DNA of 64,000 nt, from contig MGUA01000009.1 in NCBI GenBank assembly GCA_001799735.1, forward strand, positions 1 through 64,000. The letters run 5' to 3'. This DNA comes from Elusimicrobia bacterium GWB2_63_22 (GTDB lineage Bacteria > Elusimicrobiota > Elusimicrobia > Elusimicrobiales > UBA9959). Made by a program: the position numbers and the translations under genes. How positions within the stretch are numbered: the first letter of the stretch is position 1; each line of letters opens with the position of its first letter. Under the pieces are notes generated by a model. The model had not been told where the DNA came from. It did not search any database and saw nothing but the letters and a program-made list of their open reading frames with translations. Positions 13,355 through 36,795 of this stretch are shown piece after piece.

Positions 13355-13393
13355 GCTGTCAAGCCCCTATTAAAGATTTAATATTTATTTGAC

Positions 13394-13422
13394 TTGCCAT
13401 CCGGCGGTACGCCTGTTATATT
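13394..13422 (+). promoter_or_regulatory. Promoter of the giant secreted protein
   Basis: TTGCCA (13394-13399), 17-base spacer, TATATT (13417-13422). A short leader of about 14 nt carries GGGTGGAG (13425-13432) before the ATG at 13443. Confidence 0.55.
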
Positions 13423-13442: not shown

Positions 13443-16400
13443 ATGCTTAAGCCGGTTCAACTGTGTCTCTCTATCCTGTTCGGCGTCCTGGGCGCCGCCG
13501 TGCCCGCTTTTGCCCAGGACTTGACGCCGCCCACGGTGGGCGTTGTCGTCCCCGCCGGCTATTCCCACGTTAACTCCCTGGCCGAAGTTTCCGGTACGGC
13601 TCACGACGCTTCCGGAGTTTCGGACGTGCAGCTCAGCCTGGTCCGCCTTTCCGATGAGTACTACTGGGATGGCGCCGCCTATACCGCCACGCCGAGTTTC
13701 CTTACAGCTTCGGTCTCCTCGCTCACCTGGACCTACGCCACGCTGCCCGCCTTTGTTAACGGGGCCGCCTACAGCGTTTCGGCGCGGGCTCTGGACCTGG
13801 CCTCCAACTGGTCGGTGGTCTACTCCACCGCCGTCTTCTACTACGACTCCAACGAGCCGGTTTCCGACGTTGCCTACCCTGTCAGCGGGTCCGTGATCTC
13901 AACTTTTACAGGTATCAGCGGCACGGCCTGGGACGCGGAATCCTTCGCCCCGCAGGTCTGGGTGCGGGTGATCCGCGCTGCGGATAACCAGTTCTGGAAC
14001 GGCGCCATCTCTCAATGGACCGCTGCGGAAGCCTGGAATCTGTCCGTAGGCAGCGTTACCTGGACGTATTCGGGGCTGGCGCAGGGCGACCTCACCACGG
14101 GCGCCACGTATTTTGTCCTCTCCCGCGCCGCCGACCTGGCCGGCAACGTGCAGGCGCAGGTAGTGAACAGCAGCACTTTCGTCTATACGGGCGCCGCGGC
14201 CGGCGCCGGCTTCACCGGGGACTTCTCCCAGCCCGGCGGCGCGGCGTTCGACGGGGGGGCGGACGACGCCGCGACGGACATTGCGATAGACACTGTCACA
14301 TTTGGCGGACCCTATCTGTATGTCCTTGGCTACTCGTCCAGGGGGCCGACCATGGATTCCCTGGTGGTTAAGTACAACTCTTCCGGCGTGCTTGTTTCCT
14401 CCGCGATCTTCGACAGCGGGTTCAACGACAGTCCGGAAGGGATCGCGGTGGATGGTTCGGGGAATGTGTTTATAACCGGCAGCGGCAACGCCTGCGTTAC
14501 CGTAAAATACGACTCCACGCTGGTTTTACAGTCGACGGCCTCCTATCCCGCCTGCGTGGCCCAGGACCTCGCCATAGACCGGGCGGGAAACGTTTTTGTG
14601 GCTGGCTCCAAGGACGACAACGCCCTGGTTGTAAAGTACGACAACAACCTTTTGATACAATCCACGGCCGTTTATGACGGCGGAGATGCCGATGTGGCGG
14701 TCGGGGTTGCCGCCGACGCTTCCGGAAATATTTTTTCAGTTATCGGAACCCCGCTTAACGGCGCCGGCGGAAATTATCTCACCATGAAGCTAAGCAACAG
14801 CCTGGTCATCCAGGCTACCGCCGTTTACAACGGAGGTTTCAGGGATTGGCCCGAAGCGATAGCCGTAGACGCTTTGGGCAACGTGTATGTGACCGGGGAG
14901 TCCGGCAATGGTCTGGATACCGACGCTTTGACCGTTAAATACAACAACGCCCTGCTGTTCCAGTCTTCGGCCGCCTATAACGGCGGGGCGGACGATTCCT
15001 CGCTTGGGGCGGCGGCCGACAACCTTGGGAATGTTTATGTCGCCGGCTGGTCCGGCAACGGTTCCGACAACGACCTCCTGCTGCTGAAATACTCTTCCGG
15101 CCTTATGCTGTTGTCCACCGCCGCCTACAATGGCGGCGCCGAGGATTGGGCGGCCGGGGTGGCGGCTGGGAGCAGCGGGTATGTTTACGCAGCCGGCGGT
15201 TCGGGCAGCGGCGGGGATTCCGATTTTAGCGTCCTGCGCAGTTCTATGGCGGGCCAGGCGCCCCAGGACCTGCCGCCGCCGGCGCCGGTGATCATACAGC
15301 CGCCGCATAACTCGGTGGTGAATTCCATGCCGCAGCTCTCGGGCACCGCTATCGACGACGTGGCGGTCTCCTCGGTGGTGCTCTCCATACGCCGCACAGC
15401 GGACGGCCTGTTCTGGGACGGCGCCGCCTGGGCTGCCTCCCAGACCTGGCTGAGCGCCGCTACCACCGGGTACTCCTGGTTTTACGGCGCAGTGCCGGCC
15501 TGGACGGACACCTCCACTTACACCGTTAACGCGCGCGCCATGGACAGCTCCGGCAGCTGGTCCGCCGCCTACTCTACCAGCACCTTCGTGTTCAACAGCG
15601 CCCTGCCGTCGGGCTGCGCGCAGGCCTTTAACGTAAAACTCGACGGGTCCATGGAATACCAGGGTATCCAGGCCGCGCTCAACGCCCTGCCGCAGAGCCT
15701 GTCCGGCAATGCCTGCGTGGTGCTGCGCGACGCCGCCACCTATAACGAGCAGGTGACCGTGCGGAATTTTGCCAACAACGGCTACCGCATAAAGATCATG
15801 GCCGACCCGTCTTTCGTCAGCTCCGCGCCGGCGGTCAGCCCGCCCGCCCTCTCCACCGCCGCCTTCCTTATCTTCAACGACAGCGTGACGCTGCAGGGGA
15901 TAAATATAAGTCCCGCCAACCCCGTCGCCTACGGAGTTCTTTCTTCTTCGGCCGGCCTGACCCTTGCCGGAGTTAATGTGGCCGCGGGCGGAAATATCTT
16001 CACCGCGGGCGTCTCGCTCTCCAGCGGCAGCGTCATCTCCGGTTCCGGCATCGCGGTGCAGGATGCCGAGGGCGTCATGCTGACCGGCACACTTAGCTCT
16101 GTCGGCCAGAGCACCATAACCTGCGACACCTCCCGCTATTCCGCCCTCACTTTCTCCGGCGCGTCCTCCAATACCGTGACCGGGAGTTTTCTCTCCAACC
16201 CCAACGGCCGCGTGGTGTATGTTTCCACCAGCGCCAACGGTAATGCCATCGCGCAAAGCGTCATTGCCAGCGATTCTAACGCCATAGGCATGTTCGCGGC
16301 GCTTTACGTCCGGGCTTCTTCCTCCAACACGGTTTCGGATACGGTCATCAATAATCCGTCGGGTGTGGCGGCCTATCTCGGCGTCGGCGCTAACTACAAC

Positions 16401-19400
16401 TCCATAATTCGCAGCACCATGACCAGCGTGAGCACCGGCTACCAGGCCCTGCGCATCTCCGGCGGGGCGTACAACACGGTGGCCGGCAGCTACATGTACA
16501 CCACGCTCGGCTACGCCCTGTCCATCGGCGTGAACTCCGGCTCCGACTACAACACAATAACCCAGAGCACCATGGCCAGCAATTCCATCCCGCTGTCCGC
16601 CCTCTATGTTTACCGCGCCTCGGGCAATACGGTGGACGGCTGCGTCATCTCCAACCCCTCCGGAGACGGCGCGTACCTCTGGGATAATTCCAATAACAAC
16701 ACGATCAGCCGCAGCAGCGTAACCAGCAACGCGGCCGGCAAATACGCCATGCATTTCTCAGGGTCCTCTGGTAACCAGGTGCAGGACAGCTACCTGGCCA
16801 ATCCTCCCGGCTACGGCCTGCAGTTCGCCGGCGGCGCCGTCAATCAGCTGCTTCGCAGCACGGTCAGCGTCAATTCAATTTACGCCGCGTTCACGCTGGA
16901 CAATTCCACCGGGAACACTGTTTCGCGCAGCGTTATCTCCAACCCTTCCGGCTACGGCGCCTTCCTGGGCTTCGGGGCGAACCATAACACTGTCGACTTC
17001 AGCCGCATTTCCGCCGACGCGGCGGACTATTTCGCGTTCAAGATACAGAGTTCCTCTTTTAATATCGTTTACGATAACTTCATCTCCAACCCCGGCGGGG
17101 TGGCTTATACCAGCGTGTTCGGGACAGGCAACGTGCTGGGCCGCAGCACGGTCACCAGCGGCGCCTGGCCTTACAGCGCCGTGTTCATAGACGCCTCGGA
17201 CTATCACGGAGTGAGCTATTCCTACATCCAGGGCGCCGATGCGCTGTTCGTGCGGGATTCCACCGGCACCGGCGTGGCTTACAACGTTCTTGCGGCAACC
17301 AACATGGCGGGCACTGGCTTGCGGCTGGATAACAGCGCGGGCCTGTTTTCTACCGCAAACCGCATCTCGGCGGGAGGCACCGGGACGCTTATCAACGCCG
17401 GCTGCTCCGGGGTTATTGCTGTAACTTCCGACACCGTGAGCGGCGCGGCCCGCGGTTTCAGCGCGGATGCGCTGGCCGACGGCGGTTCATTGGCCATGTC
17501 CGGAGTTATTTTTGAATCACTGGCCCCCGGGGCCACCGCCATCAATTTCCTCGGCGGCACCTTCGTCTCCACCATCGCTTACGCCACCTTTAACGGCACA
17601 GGCCCCCTGGTGAACGTGGACGGCAGCCTGCTGGCGCCCGGTTCCGCCGTGACCATGCGGGATTATTTCGGTCCGCGCGCCGGCCCCGCCTACGAGACCG
17701 ACCCCGGCAACCGCGTCTTCTGGTCCGCCGAGGACAGCGCGGCGCCTACCGCGGCCATACTGCAGCCGGCGAACAATTCTTTCCTCAACGCCCTGGGAGC
17801 GGTTTCCGGCACCGCTGCCGACGGGATGGCCGTGTCTTCGGTGACGGTTTCCGTGTACCGCAACGATACCGGCCTGTTCTGGGACGGCGCCGCCTGGGCC
17901 GCCGGACAGGCCTGGCTGAACGCCGCGGTATTCCCCTCGTCCTGGACTTTTACCGCCCTGCCCGCCCTGGTGGACGGCTCTTCGTACACTCTCAGCGCCA
18001 GAGCCATGGACAGCTCCAATAATTGGTCGGGGGCCGTCAACAGCGTGTTCACCTATGACGCAACGGCGCCGCTTTCGGCCGTAGTCCAGCCGGCCAGCGT
18101 ACAATCCGCGACCTTTACTTATATTTCCGGCACTGCGTTCGACGCGCACGGGCTGATGCAGGTGCAGGTGGGCGCCAGGCGCGTAGCCGATGCCGCCTAC
18201 TGGAACGGGAGCGTCTGGGCATCCACGCCGGCCTGGAACCTCGCCTCCGGCACTACTGTGTGGCTGTATGCGGGCATAAGCAGCGCGGCGCTGTCGGACG
18301 GGGCCACCTACCAGTTCATGGCCCGGGCCTATGACGCCGCCGGCAACGTTTCCGATCCCTTCGCCTCGGTCAGCACCTTCACGCTCGTCATCCCGCCGGA
18401 AGGCGTGTTCAGCCCGGCCCCGTTCAGCGGGATCGGCGCCGCGGCGCTCACCGTAAATTGGGGAACCACCTATCCCGCCGGAAAACTCTATTATGTGCGG
18501 CTCTCCAGCCACTCCGCCGCAACGCCGTCTGTGGGCTTCGCCACCGCCACAGCTTCAGCCTACGCGTTCGGCGGCCTGGCCCCCAACGCCCGGTACTACG
18601 GCTTCGTTTCCACCATGCCGGTTTCCGGCTTCCTGCAGACCGGCAGCGCCGTCACGCTGGCGGTCGCGCCTTCCTCCGCGGCCTTCTCGGGAGTGGCGTA
18701 CTCCAGCGCGGCCCTCACCTGGGCGGCGGGGGGCAACCCGGCGGGCACGGGCTACCAGTACGAGGTCGCCGTTTCTTCCTCTTTCGGGGTTATTGCCAGC
18801 AGCGGTTCCGGCACGGCCGCCGGCGGCTGGCTGACGGGGCTGGCGCAGGGCGCCACCTACTACGGCCGGGTGCGGGCTATTAACGGCGAAGGGACGCCTA
18901 CCGCCTACGCCTATGCGTCTCCGGCGGTAACGCGGGCGCTGCTGCCCACCGGCCTGGCGGCCGGTCTTGCCGGTTCCGTCTTTGGCGGCAACTCTATAAT
19001 CTGGTCCTGGACTTCCGGCACGCTGGCTGCCGCCGACTACCTGGCGGTCTACCATAACGGCGTCTTCGCCGGCACGGTCCCCTACTCGGCCTCCGGCACG
19101 GACCTGCAGGAGGAGCTGGCCCCCAATACCGCGCACACGCTGGGCATAGCCGGGCGCAATAGTTACGGCGAGGGGCCGCTGGCCCTTTCCGCGCCGGTCT
19201 ACACCAACGCCGCCGTCCCCGCCGGGCTGGCCGCGCAGCGGGTGGACGTCAGCAGCGCTGTCCTGGCCTGGACGCTCAACGGCAACTCGGCCGGCACCAC
19301 GGCGCAGCTCTGGCGCTCGGCCGACAACGTTACTTTCTCCAGCGTGTTCACCGGGGCGGCGCTCTCCTACACCGATACCTCCGTAGAGGAATGCTCTACC

Positions 19401-20894
19401 TATTACTACAAGGCCCGCAACCGCAACGGCGCGGGGGTGTATACCGGCTACACGGCCGCCGTCGCCTTCACCACGCAGGCTTCCACACCCGCGGCGCCCA
19501 GCGGGCTTTACGCCGAGGCGCTTAACGGCGCGCGCATAGCGCTGGCCTGGGATTTCTCGCCCTGGCCCGGCGTCACACAGTACAACCTCTACTACGACAA
19601 CGCCACCGGGGCAATAAATTATGCGTCACCCTACGCCGTATTCACCGCTACCGGGGCGTCCTACGTAACGCCGGCCCTTGCCGCCGGCAGCAGCTACAAA
19701 TTCGGCCTGCGTGCCGTTAACCGCTGCGGCATAGAGGAGAAGAACACAACCATCTCCGCCTCCGCCCAGGCCGTGGGCGTGCTCAGCGGCGTGCGCGCTG
19801 CCATAAAGGCGCCGCAGACCGGCAAGAAGATAAAAGGCAACAGCGTCACTATAGTGGCCGAGATCATACTGGGCCTGCCCTCGCAGATAAAGCAGGTGCG
19901 GTTCCAGTACCGGCTGGCCGGCGCCGTGCCCTGGACTGACGTTGCCCCGGCTAACGCCAACCATTCCAACCCGGACACCGAGAGCCCCTATTTCGTCCAT
20001 TGGGACGCAGACGCCATGGCGCCCGGTACCTACGAGCTGCGCGCGCTGGCCACCGATATATACAATACCGACGACCCCGCCCCGCCCGTGGTGACCGTGG
20101 TGATAGACCCGGTGGATTACGACACCAATGAGACGGTCTCCGGCGGCGTAATACAGAAGGAGCAGAAGATCAATAACGCCGTCACCAGCACGGTGCAGGC
20201 CGCCGACGACACCACCGCCCTGCTGACCAAGCTGGTCATTCCCCCGGGCGCGGTGGACGTGACCACCGTGGCCGTCACGCTGGTGGCCAACCCCGCCTCC
20301 CGGCCGGTCCCGCCCTCCGGCTCCGAGGAGCTGAGCCTGGCGGTGAAGATAAATCTTTCCAGCGGCCAGAGCCTGCTGTCGGGCGGCAAGACCGCGGCGG
20401 TGACGCTGAGCTACAAGGACGACAACGGCGACGGGATAGTGGACGGCACCAATGCGCCGCTGGACAGGCTGCGGATGTACTCCGCCCCCGACGGCGGCGG
20501 CGCCTGGACCGAAATGGCCACCTCGGTGGACCGGGAGAAGAAGACCATCTCCGGCGTTACGGCGCATTTCAGCTTCTTCTCGGTGTTCGCCTCGCCTTCC
20601 TCCACGCTGGGCGGCATCAAGGCCTATCCTAACCCGTGGCAGCCCGGCGCGGGCGGCAGGTTCGACGCCGCGGCGGGCATAACCTTCGCCAACGTGCCGA
20701 CCGGCTCCAGGATAAAGATCTTCACGATAATGGGCGAACTGGTGCGGCAGCTCGAAGTGACGGCGGCCGACGCCAATACCAAGCTTTGGGACGGCAGGAA
20801 CGCAGAGAGCCACAAGGCGGCCAGCGGCGTCTACATAGTGCTGGTAAAGTCCGGGTCCGCGGACAGAACGTTTAAAATAGCGGTAGAAAGATGA
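13443..20894 (+). CDS. Giant modular secreted protein with YWDG repeats, beta-propeller, beta-helix and type IX-like C-terminal domain
   Basis: 2,483 residues. Order: signal peptide (1-25, ending AFAQ); two Ig-like repeats with a (Y/F)W(D/N)G motif (about 35-255); SBBP/NHL-type propeller with DGSGNVFITGSGN-like repeats (258-603); a third YWDG repeat (620-720); a right-handed parallel beta-helix with SGNTVSRSVISNPSGYGAF-like turns (725-1405); YWDG repeats four and five (1433-1650); fibronectin III-like modules (1650-2115); an Ig-like module; a Ca-site-like strand DDNGDGIVDG within a further domain (2223-2385); and a final domain (2386-2483) with AYPNPWQPG, MGELVRQL, LWDGRNAESHKAASGVYIVLV. That last domain matches FlgD-like/type IX secretion C-terminal domains. 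It is coupled by ATGA to a PorV/PorQ gene. Probable cell-surface adhesin or polysaccharide-binding protein. Confidence 0.85.
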   Translation: MLKPVQLCLSILFGVLGAAVPAFAQDLTPPTVGVVVPAGYSHVNSLAEVSGTAHDASGVSDVQLSLVRLSDEYYWDGAAYTATPSFLTASVSSLTWTYATLPAFVNGAAYSVSARALDLASNWSVVYSTAVFYYDSNEPVSDVAYPVSGSVISTFTGISGTAWDAESFAPQVWVRVIRAADNQFWNGAISQWTAAEAWNLSVGSVTWTYSGLAQGDLTTGATYFVLSRAADLAGNVQAQVVNSSTFVYTGAAAGAGFTGDFSQPGGAAFDGGADDAATDIAIDTVTFGGPYLYVLGYSSRGPTMDSLVVKYNSSGVLVSSAIFDSGFNDSPEGIAVDGSGNVFITGSGNACVTVKYDSTLVLQSTASYPACVAQDLAIDRAGNVFVAGSKDDNALVVKYDNNLLIQSTAVYDGGDADVAVGVAADASGNIFSVIGTPLNGAGGNYLTMKLSNSLVIQATAVYNGGFRDWPEAIAVDALGNVYVTGESGNGLDTDALTVKYNNALLFQSSAAYNGGADDSSLGAAADNLGNVYVAGWSGNGSDNDLLLLKYSSGLMLLSTAAYNGGAEDWAAGVAAGSSGYVYAAGGSGSGGDSDFSVLRSSMAGQAPQDLPPPAPVIIQPPHNSVVNSMPQLSGTAIDDVAVSSVVLSIRRTADGLFWDGAAWAASQTWLSAATTGYSWFYGAVPAWTDTSTYTVNARAMDSSGSWSAAYSTSTFVFNSALPSGCAQAFNVKLDGSMEYQGIQAALNALPQSLSGNACVVLRDAATYNEQVTVRNFANNGYRIKIMADPSFVSSAPAVSPPALSTAAFLIFNDSVTLQGINISPANPVAYGVLSSSAGLTLAGVNVAAGGNIFTAGVSLSSGSVISGSGIAVQDAEGVMLTGTLSSVGQSTITCDTSRYSALTFSGASSNTVTGSFLSNPNGRVVYVSTSANGNAIAQSVIASDSNAIGMFAALYVRASSSNTVSDTVINNPSGVAAYLGVGANYNSIIRSTMTSVSTGYQALRISGGAYNTVAGSYMYTTLGYALSIGVNSGSDYNTITQSTMASNSIPLSALYVYRASGNTVDGCVISNPSGDGAYLWDNSNNNTISRSSVTSNAAGKYAMHFSGSSGNQVQDSYLANPPGYGLQFAGGAVNQLLRSTVSVNSIYAAFTLDNSTGNTVSRSVISNPSGYGAFLGFGANHNTVDFSRISADAADYFAFKIQSSSFNIVYDNFISNPGGVAYTSVFGTGNVLGRSTVTSGAWPYSAVFIDASDYHGVSYSYIQGADALFVRDSTGTGVAYNVLAATNMAGTGLRLDNSAGLFSTANRISAGGTGTLINAGCSGVIAVTSDTVSGAARGFSADALADGGSLAMSGVIFESLAPGATAINFLGGTFVSTIAYATFNGTGPLVNVDGSLLAPGSAVTMRDYFGPRAGPAYETDPGNRVFWSAEDSAAPTAAILQPANNSFLNALGAVSGTAADGMAVSSVTVSVYRNDTGLFWDGAAWAAGQAWLNAAVFPSSWTFTALPALVDGSSYTLSARAMDSSNNWSGAVNSVFTYDATAPLSAVVQPASVQSATFTYISGTAFDAHGLMQVQVGARRVADAAYWNGSVWASTPAWNLASGTTVWLYAGISSAALSDGATYQFMARAYDAAGNVSDPFASVSTFTLVIPPEGVFSPAPFSGIGAAALTVNWGTTYPAGKLYYVRLSSHSAATPSVGFATATASAYAFGGLAPNARYYGFVSTMPVSGFLQTGSAVTLAVAPSSAAFSGVAYSSAALTWAAGGNPAGTGYQYEVAVSSSFGVIASSGSGTAAGGWLTGLAQGATYYGRVRAINGEGTPTAYAYASPAVTRALLPTGLAAGLAGSVFGGNSIIWSWTSGTLAAADYLAVYHNGVFAGTVPYSASGTDLQEELAPNTAHTLGIAGRNSYGEGPLALSAPVYTNAAVPAGLAAQRVDVSSAVLAWTLNGNSAGTTAQLWRSADNVTFSSVFTGAALSYTDTSVEECSTYYYKARNRNGAGVYTGYTAAVAFTTQASTPAAPSGLYAEALNGARIALAWDFSPWPGVTQYNLYYDNATGAINYASPYAVFTATGASYVTPALAAGSSYKFGLRAVNRCGIEEKNTTISASAQAVGVLSGVRAAIKAPQTGKKIKGNSVTIVAEIILGLPSQIKQVRFQYRLAGAVPWTDVAPANANHSNPDTESPYFVHWDADAMAPGTYELRALATDIYNTDDPAPPVVTVVIDPVDYDTNETVSGGVIQKEQKINNAVTSTVQAADDTTALLTKLVIPPGAVDVTTVAVTLVANPASRPVPPSGSEELSLAVKINLSSGQSLLSGGKTAAVTLSYKDDNGDGIVDGTNAPLDRLRMYSAPDGGGAWTEMATSVDREKKTISGVTAHFSFFSVFASPSSTLGGIKAYPNPWQPGAGGRFDAAAGITFANVPTGSRIKIFTIMGELVRQLEVTAADANTKLWDGRNAESHKAASGVYIVLVKSGSADRTFKIAVER

Positions 20895-21877
20895 AGAACA
20901 GGAACACCATACTTATAGCCCTGTGGCTGGCCCTGCCGGCAGGGGCCCTCGCGGCCGACAACGGCACGGTGTCCGGGCTTTTCCTGCGGCTGCCGCCGGC
21001 CGCGGCGGGCGCGGGCATGGGCGACGCCGGCGTGGCGGTGGTGGCGGGTTCCCCGGCTATCTTCGTCAACCCGGCTGGCCTGGCCGGCGTGAAGGGCGGC
21101 TACGCCTCCTTCTCGCATTCCTCCTGGGCGGATTCGCTGACCTACAACGTGGTCAGCGCCGCCGTAAAAACAAAGAATTCAGGCGTGTTCGGCGTGGGCC
21201 TGCGGTACCTCTCCTACGGCGAGATGGCCGCCATGGACAATACGGGCGCGGCCGCCGGCAGCCTGTCCCCGAGGGATATGTCGGCCGAGGCCGGCTGGGC
21301 TACCGACCTGGACTGGGACAGCTCCCTGGGTTTCTCCTTCAAATACGTCAGCTCGCGCATACTGCGCAGGGCCACCTCCTTCGCCGCCGACATCGGCTAC
21401 ATGAAGCGCGCGGGCAACGCCTTCTTCGGCGCCGCGCTGCAGAACTCTGGCAGCGGCCTGAAGTACGGGGACGAGGCCTACCCGCTGCCGCTCAACCTGA
21501 AACTCGGTTTGGGGGTGCCCTTCGGCAGGAATCTGCTGGGCGTTTTCGACCTTAACGTCACGCGCGGCGCCAGCCCGTGGGTGGCCGCCGGCGCCAAATA
21601 CACCCTGCCCGTGCGCGACGACATGGCCATGTCGCTGCGCGCCGGCTACAATACCGCCTCCGCCGACACCGGCGGGGTCAACGGCTTCGCCGCCGGCTTC
21701 GGCCTGGCCGGGGAAAGGCTGGCGCTGGACTACGCCCTGCGCACCATGGGCGAACTCGGGATAACCCACCACCTGGGGCTGAGCTTTAAATGGGATATGC
21801 CGGGCCTCAAGGTTACCAACGTGCGCGAGTACCCGCCGGCGCGCAGGGAGCAGAAGAAGACTTTCCGGTTCAAATAA
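20891..21877 (+). CDS. PorV/PorQ family outer-membrane protein
   Basis: 328 residues with a signal peptide (1-21, ALAAD). The sequence [22 protein letters not shown] followed by [12 protein letters not shown] is the hallmark of PorV/PorQ (UPF0164) proteins, and the rest is a run of amphipathic strands with Gly/aromatic turns, consistent with a beta-barrel. In Bacteroidota, PorV shuttles type IX cargo to the cell-surface sortase. The start codon overlaps the stop of the giant protein (ATGA), and that protein ends in a type IX-like domain, so a cargo/partner relation is likely by inference. No sortase PorU or PorLMN gene is in the window. Confidence 0.8.
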
Positions 21878-33507: not shown

Positions 33508-36500
33508 ATGCTAAAAAATGCTTTTGTGGTTCTCCTTTTCGCGGTGCCGTGTTTCGGCGCGGCTCCTAAACCGGCCAAATTCGGCATTTCACTGCAGCGG
33601 ACCAACGGTGCCTCTGACGACAGGAAATACTCCATAACCTTCTCCCCCGACAACGCCAGCGTGGCGCTGGGCGGCATGACCCTGGTCGTGTGGAGCAACA
33701 AAGGATACCTCATTCGGGAGGTTCTCCCTCCGGCGGGCGGACGCTCTTTCTACGGCTTCGGGCTGCTCCTGTTCTCTAAGGACGGGAGGGAACTCGTCTC
33801 TGCCTCCAGGAGCGAGAAGACCGTTAATATCTATGCCGCGGCTTCGGGGAAGATACTGCGCACAATAACCCTCGGCACCGAAGGTAACGCCAGTTGCCTG
33901 GCTTTTTCCGGGGACGGGGGTACGCTGGCCATAGGTACCACCGAGGGCGCGGTGGAACTGTGGGATTACAAGCGGGACCAATTACTGAAACGTGTACAGG
34001 TTACCGACAATACTATCGGCCAGCTCGCCTTCCTGCGCGACGGAAGGCTGGTTTATGGCGCCGTGCAACTCTATACCATAGTGCGCACCCCAACGTCCGT
34101 CAGCAAGACCATGAATAGCGGGGACGTCGGGTTCGAAGTGGGGTTCGTGGGCGCCGTCGGCCGCGGCGGGAAGAGTTTTAAGTGGCGCAATAAAGCCGGC
34201 AGCGAGTTGTTCTCCTTTTCGCCAGGGACAGAAAGACTGGCTGTGCACGACAGGAACACCATCTGGGTGCTGGACAGCGGCTTCAATGTGCTGAAAAGCA
34301 CCGCCTTGGTCTCCGGCGGCCAGCCCATGGAGGCGGCCAGGGCGCTTTTAAGCCCGGACGGTTCGGAGCTGGCGGTAATAACGGCCCCCGGCAGTTCGTG
34401 CCGGAGGATAGTCTATTCCCTGCCGGGCTTGGCCAGGCTGGCCGATTACCCCCTGCCGGACCACTGGGACGTGCAGGCGGCCTATACGCCCGATTCCAGG
34501 TTCATCGGTATCGCCGGCCTCGGCGAGTCCAACAGGCTTATCGATCCTCACACCGGCACTTTGCACCTGGGCCTCCACAAACACGCCGACACACCAGTGA
34601 CCGCAGATATCAGCCCGGACGGAAAACATGTAGCTTCCGGAGGCAGTTCGGTGAGCCTGTGGCCTATAGCAGGCGGGACCCCTAAAAATGTGCCGAGTCA
34701 GTTTCTCGTTTCCAAGGTAATCCTTGCCCCGGATGGGCGGCATATAGTGGTAAGCCGACGTTATGGAATAGAAGTGACGGAATTGGACAGCGGGGAAAGC
34801 CATGTGTTAGAGGCTGGTCAAATAAGTCCGGTGGCGCTTAGTGCTGATGGCCGGAAGATAGCTTATATGCCTCCCTGGACCGGGGTCCCCTCTTCAATGC
34901 GCCTGGTGGTGCGCGACTCCGTGTCGGACAAGATCTATAACGAGATACCGGTGAACTATTGCCCGGTGGAAAAGGTCGGGTTCAGTTCTTCCGGCAGGTT
35001 CCTGGTTTGGGGCCGCGGCCTATACGACCTGAAAACTAATAAGTTGCTGACTACCATGTCCTCCAACGTGGTGGACGTAGCCCGGAACCTGATGGCCGTG
35101 GCCGGCTACGAGAACGGGGTAGTGGTACGTACCCTGGCCGGCCGTGAAATTGGTTACCCGCGGATCGCTGGCAGGGCCACCGTGCTGCGTTTTGCTCCGG
35201 GGGAAAAGGCGATAGCCGTGGGGCTGGATAACGGAGGCATAGAGCTCTGGAGCGGGCAGGATTTTAAGCGGGGTAAAAGGCTGGCCGGTCACCAGCAGGG
35301 CATAACGGACCTGGAGTTCAGCAGCGACGGGCGGTTCCTGGTATCCTCCAGCAACGACAATACCACCAAGGTCTGGAACCTGCGGAATTTCAGGCACTAT
35401 ACCCGTTTTTCCGGAGGCGGAGAGTGGCTCATCTATACTCCGGACGGCTATTTTGACGCTTCTCCCAGGGGCGAGGGACTGGCCGCCATGGTCAGCGGAA
35501 TGAATGTTTTTGGGCTGGAGCAGTTCGCGGCGCGCAATAACCGCCCGGATATCATCCTGGGCAGGATGGGTCTCGGCTCGCTGGAAGAGGTGGCCCATTA
35601 TAAGGAACTGTACCTGAGGAGGCTTAAGAAAATGGGCCTTACCGAAGCCGACCTGAGCGGGGAACTTCACGCCCCGGAGGCGAAGGTGATTTTGACGCGG
35701 CGCGAGGGAAAATTCCTGACCGTGGATTTCCTGCTTTCCGACACCAAAGTCCCCCTGAAGAGTTACAACGTCTTCGTGAATAATGTTCCGCTGTTAGGCG
35801 CCGACGGAAAAAGCGTTTCTGGCGGCAGCTTCCGGGGGAGCGAACGGATAGAACTCGCTTCCGGAAAGAACAAGATAGAGATCTCCGTTACCAACGGGGC
35901 CGGGGTGGAAGCCTACCGCGCCCAGGCCTACGCCGATCACGGTGAGAAACTGAAAGGCAGTCTTTACTACCTGGCCTTCGGGGTCTCGCGGTACAAGCTG
36001 CCGGAACTGGCCTTGAATTACGCCGATAAGGACGCACGGGACCTGGAAGACGTGGTGATGAGAATGCGCCCCAAATACGACAATGTTTTCTCCAAGGTGC
36101 TGCTTAATTCCGAGGCTACCGCGGAGAATATAAAGAGCGCCAAGGCGTTCCTGGCCGGCGCTAAGACGGATGACACCGTGGTGCTTTTTGCGGCCGGGCA
36201 CGGCGGGTACAGCCGGGGCGCGGACCCGAAGTATTATTACCTGCCGTACGAGGGGGACCCGGCCAAACCGGAGACTACTGGCGTGACTTTCGAGGCCATA
36301 GAATCTATGTTGGACGGCATAAAGCCGCGAAAAAAACTATTCCTGCTGGATACCTGCGATTCCGGCGAGCTCGACGAGGAGACCTTCGGCCGGTACTACG
36401 CCGCAGCCAAGGCCAGGGGCATAACGCCGCGCAGCTACCGCAAGCCGCTGAAAGTAAGGGGGACAGAAGAGGCCGCCCCCAGGCCTTACCTGTACGAAAA

Positions 36501-36795
36501 GAACCGACTCATCTACAACGACCTCTCCCGGCGCACTGGTGCTATTGTCTTCTCTTCTTCGCGCGGCGGTGAAATTTCGTATGAAAGTTCTGACATTCAG
36601 AATGGTTTTTTTACTCACGAAGTGATAGCGGCCCTAAGCGGCCGGCAGGCTGACCAGAACGGAGACGGCAAAGTGTCCACCAAAGAACTCAGGGGCTACG
36701 TTTCCGCCGCGGTAAAGACCAGCACTAACGGGCTGCAGAACCCCGCCGTGGACAGGGATAATATTTTTCAAGAAATAGAATTCCCTCTGCCGTGA
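33508..36795 (+). CDS. Secreted WD40-repeat caspase-family (C14) protein
   Basis: 1,095 residues. A signal peptide (1-18) is followed by two runs of WD40-like propeller blades (about 25-660; clearest blade LAGHQQGITDLEFSSDGRFLVSSSNDNTTKVWNL near 592-625), a linker domain (660-810), and a caspase/metacaspase p20-like domain (816-1095). The dyad is His898 in AAGHGGYS and Cys950 in LLDTCDSGE. A loop with EF-hand spacing (DQNGDGKVSTKE, 1049-1060) near the end suggests calcium control. Caspase-fold proteases in bacteria act in signalling and programmed death, usually in the cytoplasm; export is notable. First gene of a five-gene operon; Y-repeat upstream. Confidence 0.88.
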   Translation: MLKNAFVVLLFAVPCFGAAPKPAKFGISLQRTNGASDDRKYSITFSPDNASVALGGMTLVVWSNKGYLIREVLPPAGGRSFYGFGLLLFSKDGRELVSASRSEKTVNIYAAASGKILRTITLGTEGNASCLAFSGDGGTLAIGTTEGAVELWDYKRDQLLKRVQVTDNTIGQLAFLRDGRLVYGAVQLYTIVRTPTSVSKTMNSGDVGFEVGFVGAVGRGGKSFKWRNKAGSELFSFSPGTERLAVHDRNTIWVLDSGFNVLKSTALVSGGQPMEAARALLSPDGSELAVITAPGSSCRRIVYSLPGLARLADYPLPDHWDVQAAYTPDSRFIGIAGLGESNRLIDPHTGTLHLGLHKHADTPVTADISPDGKHVASGGSSVSLWPIAGGTPKNVPSQFLVSKVILAPDGRHIVVSRRYGIEVTELDSGESHVLEAGQISPVALSADGRKIAYMPPWTGVPSSMRLVVRDSVSDKIYNEIPVNYCPVEKVGFSSSGRFLVWGRGLYDLKTNKLLTTMSSNVVDVARNLMAVAGYENGVVVRTLAGREIGYPRIAGRATVLRFAPGEKAIAVGLDNGGIELWSGQDFKRGKRLAGHQQGITDLEFSSDGRFLVSSSNDNTTKVWNLRNFRHYTRFSGGGEWLIYTPDGYFDASPRGEGLAAMVSGMNVFGLEQFAARNNRPDIILGRMGLGSLEEVAHYKELYLRRLKKMGLTEADLSGELHAPEAKVILTRREGKFLTVDFLLSDTKVPLKSYNVFVNNVPLLGADGKSVSGGSFRGSERIELASGKNKIEISVTNGAGVEAYRAQAYADHGEKLKGSLYYLAFGVSRYKLPELALNYADKDARDLEDVVMRMRPKYDNVFSKVLLNSEATAENIKSAKAFLAGAKTDDTVVLFAAGHGGYSRGADPKYYYLPYEGDPAKPETTGVTFEAIESMLDGIKPRKKLFLLDTCDSGELDEETFGRYYAAAKARGITPRSYRKPLKVRGTEEAAPRPYLYEKNRLIYNDLSRRTGAIVFSSSRGGEISYESSDIQNGFFTHEVIAALSGRQADQNGDGKVSTKELRGYVSAAVKTSTNGLQNPAVDRDNIFQEIEFPLP

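Follow-up and report, generated by a model that had tools for sequence, protein, structure and literature searches.

In F. johnsoniae, as set out in the available sections of PMC12618676, a common PorV takes cargo with type A C-terminal domains (CTDs) from SprA, and type B CTDs depend on cognate PorP/SprF barrels whose genes often come immediately after the cargo gene; some CTDs are orphans, and there is some crosstalk. According to passages of PMC9143113, the surface retention of PG1035 and SprB is presumed to depend on their PorP-like barrel, and the CTD of PG1035 appears to be uncut. Type IX secretion (T9SS) is described as exclusive to Bacteroidota in the text available from PMC12618676, and as exclusive to the Fibrobacteres-Bacteroidetes-Chlorobi group in that of PMC11205867. 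A literature search whose range left out most subscription journals and all preprints found no description of a type IX-like system, or of CTD/PorV pairing, in Elusimicrobiota.

The locus studied here shares with the type B scheme (PMC12618676 and PMC9143113, in the parts available) a cargo gene followed by its own barrel gene, many paralogous pairs per genome and some orphan CTDs; an uncut CTD and anchorage on the barrel have also been proposed there. It differs in that the Elusimicrobiota signal is type A-like and the barrel belongs to the PorV/PorQ family: at E up to 0.1, the type B CTD model TIGR04131 does not match the cargo of the window, nor does the PorP/SprF model TIGR03519 match its barrel. 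With the type A route of Bacteroidota, as covered by the accessible portions of PMC10994853, it has in common the CTD fold, the PorV-type barrel and a SprA homologue. There, one PorV serves type A cargo and PorU removes the CTD in Porphyromonas gingivalis, whereas in the little-studied Elusimicrobiota a PorV paralogue lies beside most cargoes and no C25 peptidase was found in the source genome and its relatives. By analogy, the layout in Elusimicrobiota resembles the type B/PorP-SprF scheme transposed to type A CTDs and PorV, with a common SprA-like pore, and suggests a route with private receptors per cargo instead of one common receptor.

The layout is not confined to Elusimicrobiota, since on the Rhodothermus marinus plasmid pRMAR01 (NC_013502.1) a CTD-ended protein is encoded directly upstream of a PorV/PorQ-family gene, with a 29 nt overlap. 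This pair differs in its phylum, Rhodothermota, and in its CTD, which matches our own CTD profile (E 6.3e-15) and scores 13.4 bits with TIGR04183, under the cut-off. Searched with the window PorV, the plasmid collection gives three matching records, and with the Rhodothermus PorV two. Two neighbourhoods were inspected, those of Rhodothermus and Parabacteroides; the Parabacteroides porQ lies beside cmk, with no CTD match in its neighbourhood. The Elusimicrobiota would possess a phylum-wide T9SS relative with a divergent SprA, many cargo-paired PorV paralogues and almost no C25 sortase, in contrast with the described range of T9SS and with its one PorV for type A cargo. With about 21 natural pairs in one genome, the coding of CTD/PorV specificity becomes directly testable, as does the question of which machine parts (motor, sortase) are dispensable or later additions.

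The cargo gene and the barrel gene

The window, i.e. the whole stretch of 64,000 nucleotides that was analysed, lies on contig C9 of a source genome of 3.06 Mb in 45 contigs. The features of the pair are the following.

13443..20894, + strand: giant cargo gene (ORF, 2,483 aa), repeat-rich surface protein with a CTD end; Pfam Beta_helix, SBBP, fn3 and Big_7 over cut-off
13443..13514, + strand: Sec-type signal sequence of the cargo, about 24 aa; translation inspected by eye
14424..14492, + strand: beta-propeller (SBBP) repeat, best stretch; Pfam PF06739, 43.4 bits
16476..16925, + strand: right-handed beta-helix region, best stretch; Pfam PF13229, 49.8 bits
18666..18896, + strand: fibronectin type III domain, best stretch; Pfam PF00041, 40.1 bits
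19800..20045, + strand: bacterial Ig domain (Big_7), best stretch; Pfam PF17957, 39.7 bits
20625..20885, + strand: type A T9SS-like CTD; TIGR04183, seven-strand model with pLDDT 82.5, top fold match the PorZ CTD 5m11
20891..20894, + strand: stop codon of the cargo and start codon of PorV, overlapping as ATGA; kept in related pairs
20891..21877, + strand: outer-membrane barrel of the PorV/PorQ family (328 aa), put forward as dedicated receptor/anchor for the cargo encoded upstream; NF033709, model nearest F. johnsoniae PorV, tied with FadL
20891..20953, + strand: signal sequence of the PorV-like protein, about 21 aa; translation inspected by eye

An in-frame TTG at 13389 could make the cargo 18 aa longer. 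A sigma-70-like site at 13394-13422 was discarded, its score being at chance level. No Rfam family exceeded its threshold in the window, and a tRNA search there found none.

The first-pass annotation had seen here a giant protein with a type IX-like CTD, followed by a gene for a PorV/PorQ barrel with which it shares an ATGA, and both assignments are confirmed by curated models. The cited motifs YPNP, GELVRQL and SGVYIVLV do stand at the end of the cargo, and the ATGA overlap is confirmed too. Cargo residues 2395-2481 score 23.5 bits with the NCBIfam model TIGR04183, marginally over its curated cut-off of 23, and this type A assignment is backed by the predicted seven-strand model and by its likeness to the CTD of PorZ. 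The latter is the best solved match of the model (Foldseek E 4.6e-6; Z 10.6, 2.4 A, 86 residues, 34% identity), and the CTDs of PorU, mirolase and RemA are also among the fold matches. With the PorZ sequence model, the last ~104 cargo residues reach 44.2 bits (E 9.4e-12), well short of the 260-bit cut-off. TIGR04131 matches two other cargo CTDs of the same genome, below its cut-off. Kinship of the cargo end with FlgD was considered and rejected: Pfam FlgD_ig scores 21.2 bits, under its cut-off of 27, and FlgD structures are weaker Foldseek rows. Among the ORFs inspected, in part of the window, no flagellar genes stood out.

The barrel scores 154.7 bits with the PorV_fam model NF033709 (cut-off 90), and the PorV and PorQ equivalog models match it under their own cut-offs. 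Its predicted model (pLDDT 78.7) is nearest to F. johnsoniae PorV in translocon structures (8gl6_F and 6h3i_F; Z 31.9 and 31.8, 3.6-3.7 A, 272 residues, 24% identity). FadL is tied with PorV as a fold match (Z 30.9, 2.9-3.1 A, 263-265 residues), and the FadL fold of the barrel is non-discriminating since PorV has the same fold; it is therefore its sequence, not its fold, that marks the barrel as PorV-like. Phmmer searches of the window PorV and of the SprA-like protein described below against PDB sequences gave nothing useful.

Pairing in the source genome and across the phylum

The PorV_fam model gives 36 matches in the source genome. Thirty PorV-family loci were oriented and examined, with start codons set by a simple rule and upstream ORFs inspected; the weak matches C37:29150 and C12:81904 were left out. 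At 21 of the 30, a CTD gene lies upstream on the same strand, at -4 to +73 nt from the PorV start (18 from the 25 loci over the curated cut-off, three from the five below). At L018 the CTD gene is 418 nt upstream, and at eight loci (L003, L006, L007, L019, L023, L026, L028 and L030) it is absent. PorV-family genes of this genome are found most often in such a CTD/PorV pair, and the idea that the pair of the window is unusual among them finds no support.

A survey of the PorV neighbours of other CTD genes, as the first-pass annotation had proposed, was run with a profile built from 22 CTDs of the source genome (E<1e-12, three weaker matches dropped). Besides its training members, which match by construction, it brings the total to 29 CTDs, 21 of them adjacent to a PorV gene, one at 418 nt and seven without adjacent PorV. 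The coupling of CTD cargo with PorV is predominant, and the idea that it is strict does not hold. Because the training members match by construction, the independent model TIGR04183 is the fair test: it finds 16 places in the source genome, 11 of which are directly followed by a same-strand PorV-family gene, versus 0.10-0.14 such adjacencies expected under gene shuffling with an assumed 2,400-3,200 genes and an assumed strand fraction. The recurrence of the pairs excludes pairing by chance. Within the source genome as a whole the ATGA overlap is rare (3 of 22 pairs).

The CTD gene upstream of L018 (L156/L157) is an uninterrupted ORF of 11,836 codons (G000:C1:108771-144278, - strand). An ATG first occurs 13 codons into the frame; the translation shows a signal sequence by eye and ends in a CTD. 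Its exceptionally large product is probably a giant surface protein. At the other extreme of size, L089 and L092 (G000 C5:125885 and C33:39559) are small CTD proteins, in frames of 185 and 195 aa, with no PorV directly behind them; the one on C33 has the top TIGR04183 score of the source genome, and further genomes of the genus also have frames of about that size. These could possibly be machine parts rather than cargo.

Homologues of the window PorV are present in all 32 genomes of the genus, seven others having 63-70% identity. In the other genomes of the genus a CTD gene lies just upstream of PorV at 28 of 29 loci, the 29th PorV being at a contig end. Among 22 named related loci, a set that overlaps the previous one, 19 have the upstream CTD gene, two are cut at a contig end and the most distant (L122) lacks it; the labels of 17 of the 22 read Elusimicrobiota, Elusimicrobia or Elusimicrobiales, those of the other five just 'bacterium'. 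Of 37 related pairs, 36 have retained the ATGA overlap (17/18 and 19/19, from overlapping sets). In the eight closest relatives the CTD has 62-71% and PorV 63-70% identity, versus 34-54% for the cargo body, an upper estimate since repeats align many ways. The genes flanking the pair vary among relatives. A downstream FKBP gene, considered as a T9SS isomerase and member of the unit, was rejected, as it has no signal sequence by eye and follows the pair in just 3 of the 21 named loci searched.

To describe the phylum, the single best-scoring PorV of each of 29 genomes was taken, which is not a random draw. A CTD gene lies at most 400 nt upstream at 17 of these 29 loci and at 440-490 nt at two more; the remaining ten have no upstream CTD, and L135, among these, adjoins a masked stretch. 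Rather than being a one-locus curiosity, the arrangement holds as a tendency across the phylum, with exceptions. At L136 and L137 a small ORF, resembling by eye a four-helix-bundle or S23-type protein, lies just upstream of PorV; in L137 it stands between PorV and the CTD gene.

Sequence distances between CTDs are correlated with those between the neighbouring PorV proteins. For the paralogous pairs of the source genome r is 0.53 (p 1e-4, 22 pairs), and for non-redundant subsets 0.40 (p 0.0026, 17 pairs) and 0.37 (p 0.016, 12 pairs). For 33, 26 and 17 non-redundant pairs from many genomes, r is 0.45, 0.39 and 0.31 (p 2e-4, 6e-4 and 0.037). This shows a long joint inheritance; alone it is no proof of binding specificity, as joint duplication without specificity gives the same result.

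SprA, C25 and GldM

Contig C39 encodes a Sov/SprA-like protein of 1,783 residues (L039:5435-10786, - strand) that aligns with the model over three stretches, at 124.7 bits (E 2.1e-36) and below the cut-off of 200. Judged from these matches, it is a clear though divergent homologue. Such matches are found in 21 of 21 genomes of the near set and in 181 of 198 genomes of the phylum, none of the 198 being over the equivalog cut-off of 200 bits. PorV_fam matches occur in 192 and TIGR04183 matches in 138 of the same 198 genomes. The six genomes without any PorV are all without SprA. In genus g38, SprA is absent from 9 of 21 genomes, and those nine have neither PorV at E<1e-10 nor a TIGR04183 CTD; among the 12 with SprA, PorV is present in 11 and a CTD in 10 (SprA/PorV association, Fisher p 3.4e-5, genomes treated as independent). 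By these profile matches, SprA is lost together with PorV and the CTDs in this genus. Five genomes (G079, G138, G154, G179 and G215) have CTD and PorV and no SprA match, and 48 have SprA without a TIGR04183 CTD, many belonging to family f2. In genus g3 of this family, many genomes combine SprA and 1-6 PorV matches with no TIGR04183 CTD, which could mean either divergent CTDs or else another use of the translocon.

The PorU-type peptidase C25 (PF01364) has no match in the source genome or in 20 relatives. Its single match among the 198 phylum genomes is an internal positive control of this search, which a divergent PorU could escape. The GldM model matches 0 of 21 near-set and 0 of 198 phylum genomes; having matched nowhere, it is without positive control. 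The proposal of a type IX-like export pair is upheld in part: the cargo/PorV overlap, the Sov/SprA homologue and the kept CTD speak for it, and a full Bacteroidota-type T9SS is not established, with no C25 match in the source genome and, by a search without positive control, no GldM match. A genome devoid of Sov/PorU homologues, with orthologues lacking the CTD, had been named as the outcome that would overturn the proposal; instead, the SprA homologue is present, and the CTD is retained in all relatives whose sequence reaches upstream, except the distant L122.

Proposed export route and its alternatives

We favour, with a probability of roughly 65%, the reading that the pair is a cargo/receptor unit of a T9SS-related route widely used by Elusimicrobiota, one that gives most cargoes a PorV-type receptor of their own. 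We infer that the cargo is bound by the PorV-like barrel, secreted and anchored. Sec would bring both proteins into the periplasm, and the cargo would pass through a common SprA-like pore, where its own PorV-like barrel would capture the CTD and draw it out sideways. Because no PorU-type sortase was found, the CTD may then stay uncut and the cargo surface-bound on its own barrel. This anchor step is less secure than the preceding ones, and the odds that the cargo is permanently held by an uncut CTD on the barrel are about even. Each displayed cargo would then need a barrel to itself, a situation also proposed for type B CTD proteins and PorP/SprF, and this would explain the co-encoding and the gene overlap. 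Several observations count against the favoured reading: 9 of the 30 PorV-family genes have no CTD gene within 73 nt and 8 of the 29 CTD genes have no adjacent PorV, and to these are added the five SprA-less genomes with CTD and PorV, the g3 genomes without CTD, the SprA scores below cut-off and the FadL tie. A broader reading, which is speculative and against which we would lean, sees a sortase-free and perhaps GldLM-free relative of T9SS in which every displayed giant protein has its own PorV-type barrel as both receptor and permanent anchor. The Rhodothermota pair would then suggest that 'one cargo, one barrel' is the old layout, and the recycled PorV and the PorU of Bacteroidota would be derived.

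It is unlikely, in our opinion, that the Elusimicrobiota possess an ordinary Bacteroidota-type T9SS with interchangeable PorV shuttles, in which adjacency reflects co-regulation or dosage and a divergent PorU and motor were missed. About 30 PorV-family genes in one genome, the correlated divergence of CTD and neighbouring PorV, and the single C25 match among 198 genomes, which itself shows that the model works, all argue against such a system. It would accommodate the seven CTD genes without neighbouring PorV, which must share a shuttle if they are exported, and the GldM search has no positive control to set against it. In F. johnsoniae, moreover, type A CTDs use one PorV via plastic, mainly hydrophobic contacts, according to the available parts of PMC12618676 and PMC10994853.

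We give little chance to an export in which each PorV-like barrel is the pore for its own cargo, without SprA. Local cargo/barrel pairing resembles two-partner secretion, and the five genomes with CTD and PorV in which no SprA was found would fit. However, the window barrel matches no two-partner transporter family at E up to 0.1, its closest solved relative is PorV, a partner of SprA, and SprA, PorV and CTD are lost jointly in genus g38. It seems very improbable that the barrel is a FadL-like small-molecule transporter placed by chance after a surface protein whose end is Ig-like or FlgD-like. The near equality of the folds (Z 30.9 versus 31.9), the FlgD structures among the CTD matches and the weak FlgD_ig score are what such a view could invoke. 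Against it, the PorV_fam, PorQ and PorV models of NCBIfam match the window barrel and no FadL sequence model does at E up to 0.1, whereas the FadL-type gene of the same genome, L030, scores 139 bits with the FadL model; in addition, the pair recurs at 21 of 30 loci, and the CTD matches are led by PorZ and include PorU and RemA.

Elsewhere in the window, positions 33508-36795 (+ strand) encode a secreted-looking protein with repeated WD40-like stretches and, by eye, a caspase-like C-terminal part. Caspase-like peptidases belong to the same clan as C25, and this protein might be a processing enzyme. Between 36000 and 40000 the G+C content is 0.53-0.55 versus about 0.63 around; this stretch runs from the last part of the WD40-like gene, across a large gene with a secreted-looking product, into the first part of a glycosyltransferase-like gene, as recognised by eye.
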